A stretch of 36,465 nt of DNA, taken from positions 1 through 36,465 of the forward strand of contig NZ_RAWI01000049.1 in NCBI RefSeq assembly GCF_003612125.1, written 5' to 3'. Shown in pieces: positions 14,271-22,335 of this stretch. Source of the DNA: Corallococcus praedator (lineage in GTDB: Bacteria; Myxococcota; Myxococcia; Myxococcales; Myxococcaceae). The notes beneath the pieces are model-generated. The model did no database searches. It was not told the DNA's origin and saw only the letters and a program-made list of their open reading frames with translations. Position 1 is the stretch's first letter. Each line of letters begins with the position of its first letter. The translations under genes and the position numbers were made by a program.

Positions 14271-14753
14271 ATGCCCCTGGACCCGAAGTTCGTCGGCCGC
14301 GCGTACGGCCCCTTCACCTACGAAATCGGCCGGGAGAAGCTGCGCGAGTTCTCCCTCATCCTGGGCGGCTCCGTCCCCTCCGCGGGCACCTTCGGAGAGC
14401 CGCCCGCGCACGTCAGTCCCCTGCTCTACGCGGACGACGTGGCGAAGGCGGGGCCCTACGGCGACGTCATCGCCTTCCCCAGCTTCGCGGTGGTGTTCGC
14501 CATCCGCCCCTTCAGCGCCGCCATCGCGGATCCGGAGCTGGGCGTGGACCGCGTGCGCCTGGTGCACGGGGAGCAGGAGCTGGAGCTGCTGGGCGTGATG
14601 CGCCCCGGGGACGTGCTCACCACCACGGGCCACATCCGGGAGCTCTACCGCAAGGCCGGGATGGACTTCCTCGTCGTCAGCACGGAGACGCTCAACGCTC
14701 GCGGCGAGCCGGTGGTGCGCGGCGTGTGGACGGCCGTCATCCGCCCCGCGTAG
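14271..14753 (+). CDS. MaoC N-terminal / FAS1-like dehydratase domain protein (HadA-like subunit)
   Basis: A 160-residue protein of the FAS1-like dehydratase (MaoC_dehydrat_N) type. It starts FVGRAYGPFTYEIGREKLRE, as in HadA-type subunits, and has the hotdog strands VRLVHGEQELELLGVMRPGD and ending RGVWTAVIRP. The Asp-x4-His hydratase motif of its neighbour is absent, so it is probably the partner subunit that binds the acyl chain. It starts two bases after the neighbour's stop, clearly one operon. Its last 17 bases overlap the end of the convergent TPR gene on the other strand, and there is no room for a conventional terminator between them. Confidence 0.82.
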   Translation: MPLDPKFVGRAYGPFTYEIGREKLREFSLILGGSVPSAGTFGEPPAHVSPLLYADDVAKAGPYGDVIAFPSFAVVFAIRPFSAAIADPELGVDRVRLVHGEQELELLGVMRPGDVLTTTGHIRELYRKAGMDFLVVSTETLNARGEPVVRGVWTAVIRPA

Positions 14754-15522
14754 AGACGGGCGATCCGCCGGGGGCGATGATGCCCTCGTCCAGCAGCTGC
14801 GCCAGGATGCGCGCGGTGTCCAGCCGCGACATCCCCGACAGCGCGAAGAGGTCGTCGAAGCTCACCGCGCCGTCAATCTGCGCGAGCACGAAGCCGGCGC
14901 GGTGATCCAGGTTGAGCCAGATGATGTCATCCGGCTGCAACCGCACGCGGGGCATCCGGTCCAGGTCCCCCAGGCGGGCCTCCAGCATGGCCACCAGGAT
15001 GCGCTCGCTGCGGTCGCGCAGGGCCTCCACGCGCGGATCCTCCGGCGCCAGCGACTGGGCCCGGCGCAGCAGGTCCACCGCGCCGGAGTGGTCGTCCAGC
15101 GTCAGGAGGTCCTCCGCCCCCTTCAGCAGGCACTCCACCTCCGAGCCCTGGGGAAGCGGCCCCATCCCGGCGTAGCTCTCCGGGAGGCCGAACTCCTGCG
15201 TGCGGTGCGCCTCCGCGATGAGGTCCAACGCGTCCCCCGGCGTCCCCGTCCCCTCCGGCAGGTTCACGGACTCGGGCAGCGGCTCCGCGGGGCCGGGGCT
15301 GGACGCATCCGCCCAGGCGCCCCAGTCCCCCTCCATGTCGGGCGCGGCGATGTTCACCGGCGCGGTGGAGCCGCCCCCCGGGGTCAGCAGCTGGCGCGCG
15401 CGCGCGTTTGCGGGATCCAGCTCCAGCGCCCGGACGAAGAGCTTCTCCGCGCCCGGAATGTCGCCACTCAGTCGCAACAGCAACCCGGCTTCGACCAGTT
15501 GCCTGGCCCGGAGCGTGTTCAT
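14737..15522 (-). CDS. TPR protein with C-terminal winged-helix-like domain, partner of the Hsp70 cluster
   Basis: A 261-residue soluble protein. Residues 1-45 form a TPR-like hairpin (LVEAGLLLRLSGDIPGAEKL, then ALELDPANARA). A Pro/Gly-rich linker follows, then a second TPR-like segment near 133-165 (LLTLDDHSGAVDLLRRAQ). Residues 205-251 are a compact helical domain (AGFVLAQIDGAVSFDDLFAL ... ARILAQLLDEGII). A related domain forms the N-terminus of the J-domain protein at the other end of this cluster. The ATG at 15522 is 41 bases after the Hsp70 stop, so it is the last gene of the unit. Likely an adaptor or client-recruiting partner of the Hsp70 next door. Exact function unknown. Confidence 0.8.
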   Translation of the reverse strand: MNTLRARQLVEAGLLLRLSGDIPGAEKLFVRALELDPANARARQLLTPGGGSTAPVNIAAPDMEGDWGAWADASSPGPAEPLPESVNLPEGTGTPGDALDLIAEAHRTQEFGLPESYAGMGPLPQGSEVECLLKGAEDLLTLDDHSGAVDLLRRAQSLAPEDPRVEALRDRSERILVAMLEARLGDLDRMPRVRLQPDDIIWLNLDHRAGFVLAQIDGAVSFDDLFALSGMSRLDTARILAQLLDEGIIAPGGSPVSTRGG

Positions 15523-15563
15523 GGGGGACTCCCTCGCGGAGCGTGAAGGCCGGGCATGCGCGG

Positions 15564-17408
15564 CTACCGTCCCGGCGTCCCGCGCGGACTGGCCGCGCGC
15601 AACTGCGGCAGGCTCTGGGAGAGCGCCTCGCAGGCCCGCGTGAGCGCGCCCACGTCCTCGCCTCCGCGCACCTGCCGCGCGTGGTCCAGGGCCTGCTCCG
15701 CGCGTGCCACGACGTCGGGCGACAGCCCTCCGGCACCGGGCAGCAGCCGCACGCGGGAGAGCGCGTCCACCAGGTCGCGGGCCAGGATGTCCAGCTCCAC
15801 GCGCCGGGTCTTCAGCTCCTCCGACGCGCGCGCGGTGACGAGCCAGTCGCGCTGTTCCTCCATGATGCGGCGCAGCTCGTCCTCCGTGAGGCCGCTGGAC
15901 GCGGTGACGGTGATGGACTGGCGCAGGCCCGTGTCGCGGTCCCTCGCGGAGACGGACACGATGCCCTCCGCGTTGATGTCGAACGTCACCTCGATCTCCA
16001 CCTGGCCGCGCGGCGCCTCGCGCAGGCCGGTGAGGAGGAACTCGCCCAAGAGCTCGTTGTGGTGCGCCAGCTCGTGCTCGCCCTGGAGCACCATGATCTT
16101 CACCGTGCGCTGGAAGTCCTTGGACGTGGCGAACACCTCCGTCGCGGACGTGGGCACGGTGGTGTTGCGCGGAATCAGCCGGCGCACGTAGCCGCCCGCG
16201 ATGGCCACGCCCATGCTCTGCGGCGTGACGTCCAGCAGCAGCAGTTCGCTCTCCTGCGCCACCAGCGCGTGCGCCTGGATGGCGGCGCCCAGGGCCACCA
16301 CCTCCTCGGCGTGCACGCCCTTGCAGGGCTCGCGGCGGAAGTACTGGCGCACCTGCTCCACGATGCGGGGCATGCGCGACATGCCCCCCACCAGGATGAC
16401 CTCCTTGAGCTCCGAGGGGCGCACCTTCGCCTCCCCCAGCACCTCGGAGGTGATGCCCACCAGGCGCTCGCCCAGGTCCGCCGTCAGGTCCTCCAGCTTC
16501 TCGCGGGTGAGCGTGGCCTGCAGGTGCAGCGCGGCGCCTCCGCCCGGCGGCGTGCAGATGAAGGGCAGGTGCACCTGCGTCTCCTTCACAGACGACAGCT
16601 CCACCTTGGCCTTCTCCGCGGCGTCCTTCAGCCGCTGCAGCGCCATGCGGTCCTTGCGCAGGTCGATGCCGTGTTCCTTGGCGAAGCCGAACACCATCCA
16701 CTCGATGATGCGGTGGTCCCAGTCCTCGCCGCCCAGGAAGGTGTCGCCGCCTGTCGCCACCACGTCGAAGATGCCGTTGTTGATCTCCAGCACCGACACG
16801 TCGAAGGTGCCGCCGCCCAGGTCCAACACGGCGATCTTCCCGTTCACCGTGCGCCCGAAGCCGTACGCCAGGGCGGCCGCGGTGGGCTCGTTGATGATGC
16901 GCAGCACCTCCAGCCCAGCGATGCGGCCCGCGTCCTTGGTGGCCTGCCGCTGGCCGTCGTTGAAGTAGGCCGGCACGGTGATGACCGCCTGGGTGACGGG
17001 CCGGCCGAAGTGCGCCTCCGCGTCCGCCTTCAGCTCGGCCAATATCATCGCGCTGACCTCCGGCACGGCCAGGTCGCGGCCCGCCAGCCGGATGCGCACG
17101 TCGTCGTGGGCGCCGCACACCACCTGGTACGTCAGGGCGCGCATCGCGTCCTGGACGGGGTGCGAGGAGAACTTGCGGCCGATGAGGCGCTTGGCCGCGG
17201 ACACCGTCTCCTGCGGGTTGGTGATGGCCTGCCGCTTGGCGATGCCGCCCACCAGCCGCTTGCCGTTCTTCGACACCGCCACCACGGACGGGGTGAGGGG
17301 CGCGCCGGTGCGGTTCTTGATGATGAGCGGCTGGCCGTCCTGCACGGTCGCGACGAGGCTGTTCGTCGTGCCCAGGTCGATGCCAATCAGCGGTCCGGAC
17401 TCAGCCAT
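15564..17408 (-). CDS. Hsp70-family chaperone (DnaK paralogue)
   Basis: A 614-residue ATP-driven chaperone. The ATPase domain has [14 protein letters not shown] (phosphate 1), [14 protein letters not shown] (phosphate 2), [14 protein letters not shown] and [11 protein letters not shown] (adenosine). The linker reads [12 protein letters not shown] in place of the usual LLLDVTPLSLG. A beta substrate-binding domain and a helical lid follow. The lid ends [11 protein letters not shown], without the acidic EEVD-like tail of housekeeping DnaK. The ATG at 17408 follows GAGGTG. No grpE is adjacent, and the partner J-protein differs from DnaJ, so I regard this as a specialised paralogue rather than the main DnaK. 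M. xanthus has such paralogues (SglK, StkA) in motility and polysaccharide control; I cannot equate this one with either. Confidence 0.92.
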
Positions 17409-17423
17409 GGGGACGCATGCACC

Positions 17424-18513
17424 TCACGTGAACGTCCAACGCAACTTCTTGAGGGCCGCACGGGCCTCCGCGTTGTCCGGATCCAGGCGCACGACCTCCT
17501 CGTAGTGATGCTTGGACTGCTTCTTCTGCCCCGCCGCCAGCAGCAGGTGGGCCAGCAGCAGGTGGTAATCCGCGCGGCCCGGTTTCAATTCCACCGCGCG
17601 CTGCGCGAGCGCCCGCACCTCGTTGACGTCATGCGCCAGCTCGCGGCCCACACGAGCAGCCTGGAAGGCCGCCTCAGGGTTGTCCCCGTTGAGCGACACG
17701 GCCAGCTTGTAGGCCGCGTGCGCCCCGGCGAAATCCCCGCCCATCTCCATCTGCTGGCCCCGCTCCACCTCCGCCTGCGCGCGGTGCAGGTCGTGCTTGC
17801 GGCGCGCGTCCACGAGCAGCGCGGCGACCTCGCGGTTCTTCGGATCCAGGCCCAGCACGTGGTTGAAGTCCTGGTAGGCCCGCTCGAAGTCCCCGCGCGC
17901 GGTGGCCGCCCTGCCCCGGGCGACGAGCTCCGTGAGCTTGTGCGTGCGCGCCATGTACGGGTGGCGCGCGAGCCGGGCCTGACGCTCGGCGCGGCGGGCC
18001 TCCGACTCCGCGTCCACGGGCCCGGGCGCGGAAGCTGCCCAGGTTCTTGCCGAAGTAGCGGTCCGGGTGGAAGCGCCGGGACGCGTTGTAATAGGCCTGC
18101 TTCACCTCCGCGGCGGTGGCGCCCCGGGGCACGCCCAGCACCGCGTGGTGGTCCATCCCGTCCAGCGCGCGCTCCAGGTCGATGATCTCGCGCTTCTGTT
18201 CGGGCTCCAGGTCCACCTCCTCCGCCATGGAGGCGTCCACGGCCGGGGCGGCGGGGGTGGCGCGTTGCACCACGCGCGCGGGGACGATGGCGCCCTTGGC
18301 GCGCAGGGACAGCAGCACGGCGATGGTGCGGGCCTCGCCCAGCGTGGAGCGGGACAGCACCGCGTCGATGCGCTCGACGCGGCCCACGAGCGACAGCACC
18401 GTGCCCTCCTCCGGGCTGAGCTGGAGGCGGGACGGGTCCAGGTGGGGCACCGTCGCGATGTGGTCGGTCCGGCCCCCCAGGCCGACGATGGGGTTGGGCG
18501 CGCTCAAGGTCAC
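17424..18513 (-). pseudogene. J-domain/TPR co-chaperone gene, broken by deletion and frameshift
   Basis: The GTG at 18513 opens a frame with a helical domain (residues 32-78, LSPEEGTVLSLVGRVERIDA ...) and then a J domain (about 121 on: HHAVLGVPRGATAAEVKQAY ... FHPDRYFGKNLGSFRAR). The HPD motif is at 149-151. At about 18017-18030 this frame turns into Arg/Gly/Pro-rich nonsense. A second frame takes over with VDAESEARRAERQARLARHP and runs to 17424 as TPR-type helices (ALLVDARRKHDL, VVRLDPDNAEARAALKKL). J-domain helices III-IV, about 25-30 residues, are missing at the junction, so a deletion rather than a single-base slip is implied. The gene ends 15 bases before the Hsp70 gene. It is either a true pseudogene or an assembly/sequencing error at a GC-rich palindromic site. 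Confidence 0.8.
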
Positions 18514-19893: not shown

Positions 19894-21291
<1,398 letters not shown>

Positions 21292-21924: not shown

Positions 21925-22314
21925 TCAGGCCACGGTGGCCTGGATCCACCGGCCCACCAGCTTCACCAGGGCCGCCTTCTTCGCCTTCACGTCCTTCGCG
22001 TCCTGGAGCGTGACGATGCCCCGGTCCACCGCGGCCCACTTCACCAGGCCCGAGTCGTCCTCGAAGGCGAAGCCCGCCGTGTCCTTCACCTTCGCGCCCC
22101 GGTGGAGGATGACCTGGAAGATGCCCTTGGGGGCCAGCCGAAACGTCACCCGGTCATCGCCGCCGTGACAGAAGCTGGGGGCCTTCCACTTGATGCGCTC
22201 GGTGAGCGTCTTGTCGGAGGCCAGGATGGCGCTGCGCACGGCTTCGATCTCCGCCTTCAGCGGATGTTCGAGCTCCGCCATGAACGCTTCAACTTCATCA
22301 CTCCGGTTCGACAT
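21925..22314 (-). CDS. DUF1801 (YdhG-like) protein
   Basis: A 129-residue soluble protein of the DUF1801 type. Typical marks are the opening helix EVEAFMAELEHPLKAEIEAV, then TERIKWKAPSFCHGGDDRVT and a late strand-helix region. Family members share an iron-chaperone-like (frataxin-like) fold in some reports, but the biochemical role is not settled. It lies between xerC and hslV on the same strand, 21 bases after xerC. In Bacillus the equivalent genes (codV-clpQ-clpY) are directly adjacent, so this gene looks like an insertion into a conserved order. Confidence 0.85.
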   Translation of the reverse strand: MSNRSDEVEAFMAELEHPLKAEIEAVRSAILASDKTLTERIKWKAPSFCHGGDDRVTFRLAPKGIFQVILHRGAKVKDTAGFAFEDDSGLVKWAAVDRGIVTLQDAKDVKAKKAALVKLVGRWIQATVA

Positions 22315-22335
22315 GCCCCTGCCCTTCCAACCGCG

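Follow-up and report, generated by a model that had tools for sequence, protein, structure and literature searches.

The gene for a J-domain/TPR protein of Corallococcus praedator has a broken reading frame in the 36,465-nt stretch of DNA analyzed here (the window), and the break is most probably an assembly collapse in a GC-extreme linker. In the organism itself, the co-chaperone gene is very probably intact. Its intact product is a co-chaperone composed of an N-terminal region, a J domain, a Pro/Ala-rich linker, and TPR repeats; with the J-domain proteins of Pfam family PF00226 that carry TPRs it shares the HPD loop, a conserved J-domain start, and the C-terminal position of the repeats. Just downstream of it on the minus strand is an intact gene for a DnaK-like Hsp70 of 614 aa (15564..17408), and no gap was observed relative to the congener G014 over positions 15547–18025. 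From this adjacency, the Hsp70 is likely the partner of the J protein. By eye, the J protein's N-terminal region (18270–18507) also resembles the C-terminal portion of the gene that follows the Hsp70 gene downstream (14737–15546, minus strand), the stretches in question being LQLSPEEGTVLSLVGR... and LQPDDIIWLNLDHRAGFVLAQIDG..., so that a shared small domain is possible.

As assembled, the J-domain/TPR gene consists of two parts on the minus strand. The 5′ part (18022..18507) encodes the N-terminal region, helices I and II, HPD, and the beginning of helix III, and ends in FRAR. It starts at a TTG at 18507, a position common to all four intact loci examined, a GTG at 18513 also being possible. 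This frame holds HPDRYFGKNLGSFRAR, with HPD at window position 18069 and FGKNLGSFRAR in frame, and its last in-frame codon ends at 18022. From there the open reading frame runs on out of frame for ~115 codons, to a stop at 17674 (17674..18021), in what appears to be a product of the junction. The 3′ part (17424..18008), whose frame holds ESEARRAERQARLARHPYMAR, begins at 18008 in another frame with ESEARRAER and continues into the TPR repeats; counted from a GTG at 18017, it figures among the ORFs as an entry of its own, of 197 aa. In this ORF (17424–18017), TPR_19, TPR_2, and others exceed the Pfam cut-off, as expected of a TPR protein. The switch of frame is located at CGCGCCCGGGCCCG (18017–18030), within the interval 18010–18040 of the original prediction, which had read the J domain as intact through HPD and FGKNLGSFRAR and the next frame as resuming in TPR-type sequence. 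Both readings were borne out.

With helices assigned by alignment to Pfam and from the known structure of J domains, the window copy falls short of a complete PF00226 J domain, in which HPD lies between helix II and helix III. HPD is present, but the Pfam DnaJ match covers positions 1–33 of 63, whereas in three intact orthologues the match reaches positions 57–59. The predicted structure of the intact orthologue, from three sequences, was poor in the J domain (pLDDT ~40–47) and was not used.

The two parts belong to the same gene as the intact J-domain/TPR orthologues of Corallococcus and other Myxococcaceae (for example, those of Corallococcus sp. CA053C, C. interemptor AB047A, and Corallococcus sp. 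AS-1-6). When aligned to the 1359-nt gene of CA053C, the 5′ part corresponds to positions 1–486 (94% identity) and the 3′ part to positions 752–1359 (87% identity), and the two window pieces overlap by 10 nt; the 10 nt at 18022–18031 align to both sides of the missing stretch. At the junction (18009..18031, minus strand), the spacing from FRAR to ESEARR is 13 nt (18009–18021), versus 225–288 nt in the nine Corallococcus orthologues that are contiguous. The net loss is thus 212–275 nt; the upper value, relative to CA053C, is not divisible by three, and the window copy is out of frame. Aligning the orthologues, as had been suggested for sizing the missing stretch, upheld the claim that the J domain carries a deletion and a frameshift, with the frame broken at 18022. 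A DNA search of 29 relatives gave the same picture, the matches within the genus coming in two pieces (query positions 1–492 and ~483–1090) with extra bases between them.

The lost piece encodes LERIFKRLTDAQNALSR, which is the rest of helix III, and the Pro/Ala-rich linker. In the nine congeners the GC content of the missing stretch is 0.798–0.829, with a peak of 0.85–0.91 over 100 nt, and that of the flanks is mostly ~0.73 (excluding the masked right flank of G006, where the gene's 3′ end is given as N). In G014, the stretch contains a 42-nt repeat in 2.9 copies.

If relatives had the same short form, the gene would not be broken at all. Among 15 congeners, both pieces were found on one contig in nine, three of them single-contig genomes, and the frame was open across the spot in all nine. 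In the family, a DNA search matched 59 of 96 genomes at E 1e-20, and 43 of these were examined (nine Corallococcus and 34 from other genera). Excluded were the window's own genome, matches split over contigs or ending at a contig end (G003, G004, G005, G012, G015, G042, and G068), and partial weak matches (G048, G049, G050, G052, G053, G054, G093, and G094). In every one of the 43 contiguous orthologues, a single open frame leads from HPD to HPYL or HPYM over 79–162 codons, and a short or split form of the gene, sought in the same 43, was found in none. Because the distance from HPD to HPYM in the window is 118 nt, not a multiple of three, and the shortest natural span is 79 codons, the frame switch is more than a chance irregularity. 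G029 was considered as a possible short natural orthologue, its linker being much shorter, yet it retains helices III and IV and an unbroken frame. G007, the closest relative by hslU (98%), could not serve as arbiter, since its assembly is without the whole gene region.

The same spot is where several assemblies of sister species fail. In five of the 15 congeneric assemblies (G003, G004, G005, G012, and G015), contigs end inside the linker. From contig counts and genome sizes, 0.18–0.20 contig ends would be expected in such a stretch over 15 genomes, giving a probability of five or more of ~3e-7 to 5e-7, a post hoc value that takes contig ends to be randomly placed. On the left, the contigs of three species (G005, G012, and G015) reach 71–74 nt beyond the break point, and that of G003 reaches ~110 nt beyond it, as measured from the match start; the left half of the gene was not found in G004 by DNA search. 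The right contigs begin 12 to 200 nt ahead of the shared part. Contig ends of this kind were found at six of nine named loci, those of C. terminator, C. llansteffanensis, C. carmarthensis, C. sicarius, C. exercitus, and Citreicoccus inhibens, five of which are likely the same assemblies as those counted above, and contigs of the family drafts G042 and G068 also end near this spot. As a control, a 692-nt stretch of the nearby hslU was unbroken in all 16 genomes.

High-GC sequence can be lost in short-read assembly through GC bias, and SPAdes may join the tips of contigs that share an overlap of ~10 nt. We infer that the linker DNA (~80–83% GC, up to ~90% over 100 nt, with short repeats) was poorly covered by short reads and that the assembler would have falsely joined the two sides over an overlap of ~10 nt, CCGCGCCCGG or close to it. 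Such a join would drop the 212–275 nt and shift the frame. In the C. terminator contig, the first right-hand bases match the junction at nine of 10 positions over a short overlap, so that a join over ~10 nt would explain the window sequence. The GC-extreme linker, which also breaks the contigs of sister species, is the likely cause of the lesion. As expected of an assembly collapse, sequence is missing from the window's assembly alone, at a place where other assemblies break off. The original prediction had left the choice between deletion and assembly collapse undecided and had placed either at a palindrome in the junction, CGGGCCCG. The evidence favors collapse, and the palindrome was rejected as the cause, for it has two copies in the window versus a mean of 4.88 in shuffles, without excess.

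The sequencing history is partly in keeping with this reading. The window's genome assembly has 10,509,589 bases in 1491 contigs, and the draft of C. praedator CA031B is given as 1491 contigs and 10.51 Mb in a table of PMC9323933, so that the genome is likely that of strain CA031B. According to the sequencing details in PMC6306037, the assemblies of these strains were made with SPAdes 3.7 from 2×250 Illumina reads, and contigs below sevenfold coverage were removed. The same details give CA031B a mean coverage of 74-fold, which counts against the collapse reading and makes the coverage hole a matter of inference. Compared with known losses through GC bias, the GC-extreme stretch and the coinciding contig ends of sister drafts are shared features, but the window assembly does not end there and runs on past the stretch, minus part of its sequence. 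It also speaks against a collapse that the sister drafts broke at the linker, with no misjoin there.

The alternative that survives best is a genuine recent deletion in the strain, with short GC-rich matches as the substrate of slippage or recombination, which we consider unlikely. The J domain would then be truncated in helix III and the frame shifted, and the co-chaperone would be either lost or split in two, a TPR piece and an N-terminal piece of no use. The short match between the two sides of the junction is of the sort left by real microhomology deletions. The missing sequence, moreover, was not found on other contigs of the same assembly, where the matches at the gene were the junction edges only and two weak matches (76% identity) lay on other contigs; its absence fits a coverage hole and equally a true deletion. 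Substitution rates in the remaining halves are similarly two-sided. The dN/dS was 0.16–0.45 for the left half and 0.15–0.40 for the right half (the highest value of the latter being against C. terminator), well under 1, which speaks against old decay; a very recent true deletion would look alike. It counts against a deletion that none of the 43 contiguous orthologues shares it and that its position coincides with the contig ends in five of 15 sister assemblies.

A second apparent lesion on the same contig also bears on this alternative. The gene hslU (19894..21291, minus strand) has an in-frame TAG (20794–20796) in a Pro-rich, GC-rich stretch 2.8 kb away, and all 11 translated copies from other species read on in frame past that position. 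Relative to four aligned copies, the TAG is a single-base difference with no indel, and it may be a sequencing error or a real nonsense mutation. Collapse during assembly does not account for this stop, and if the mutation is real, a real lesion in the J-domain gene would be less odd beside it. A candidate for a second collapse, at 22313–22333, where G014 has an extra 443 nt beside a gene that we take to be xerC, was rejected: its GC content is 0.64, it holds a small ORF, and it looks like an ordinary difference in gene content. The extra 443 nt of G014 had no match in the window's genome.

Helices III and IV had both been predicted to be missing as a result of the break. The second half of helix III is indeed cut by it, but helix IV is absent from every Corallococcus J domain that could be read. 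In all 34 orthologues from other genera, a helix IV-like stretch (on the pattern DKR-AYLKA-PAL) comes after helix III, whereas this sequence is absent in all 13 readable Corallococcus J domains, that is, the nine contiguous ones and four broken copies. In the latter (G003, G005, G012, and G015), NALSR runs straight into Pro-rich sequence, although three of these four broken ends stop within ~10 residues after NALSR. The remaining three of the 16 genomes of the genus (G004, G007, and the window, which is cut before that point) are unreadable for helix IV. The absence was seen in three single-contig genomes, and L050:2227-3582, L049:2281-3588, and L052:2290-3582 are examples among Corallococcus loci that are alike in this respect. 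By sequence comparison, the loss of helix IV appears to be genus-wide and independent of the break in the window.

PMC1906734 reports that helix IV of DnaJ has been suggested to be dispensable, with conflicting results, and that Leu57, at the end of helix III, is needed. That HPD alone would not suffice to stimulate Hsp70, as had been stated, is reasonable by analogy if the break is real, since the truncated form would be without the region of Leu57. A composite scenario, in which Corallococcus really lost helix IV and erosion in C. praedator then truly deleted through helix III, the J function of the dedicated pair being given up with the TPR part and the Hsp70 still under selection, seems distinctly improbable. 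Scarcely credible is a functional split into two working proteins, one with the N-terminal region and half a J domain and one with the TPR part: a GTG (18017) does stand at the start of the TPR frame and the sequence of the TPR part is conserved, but the half domain would be without the end of helix III, where PMC1906734 reports Leu57 of DnaJ as essential, the 5′ ORF continues for its ~115 codons out of frame, and no examined relative shows the split within one contiguous contig.

An assembly collapse at the linker carries a caution for related genomes, as Pro/Ala linkers in very GC-rich bacteria can drop out of short-read drafts, and sound genes then look broken. For the J-domain proteins themselves, the absence of helix IV across Corallococcus could help to test the role of this helix.
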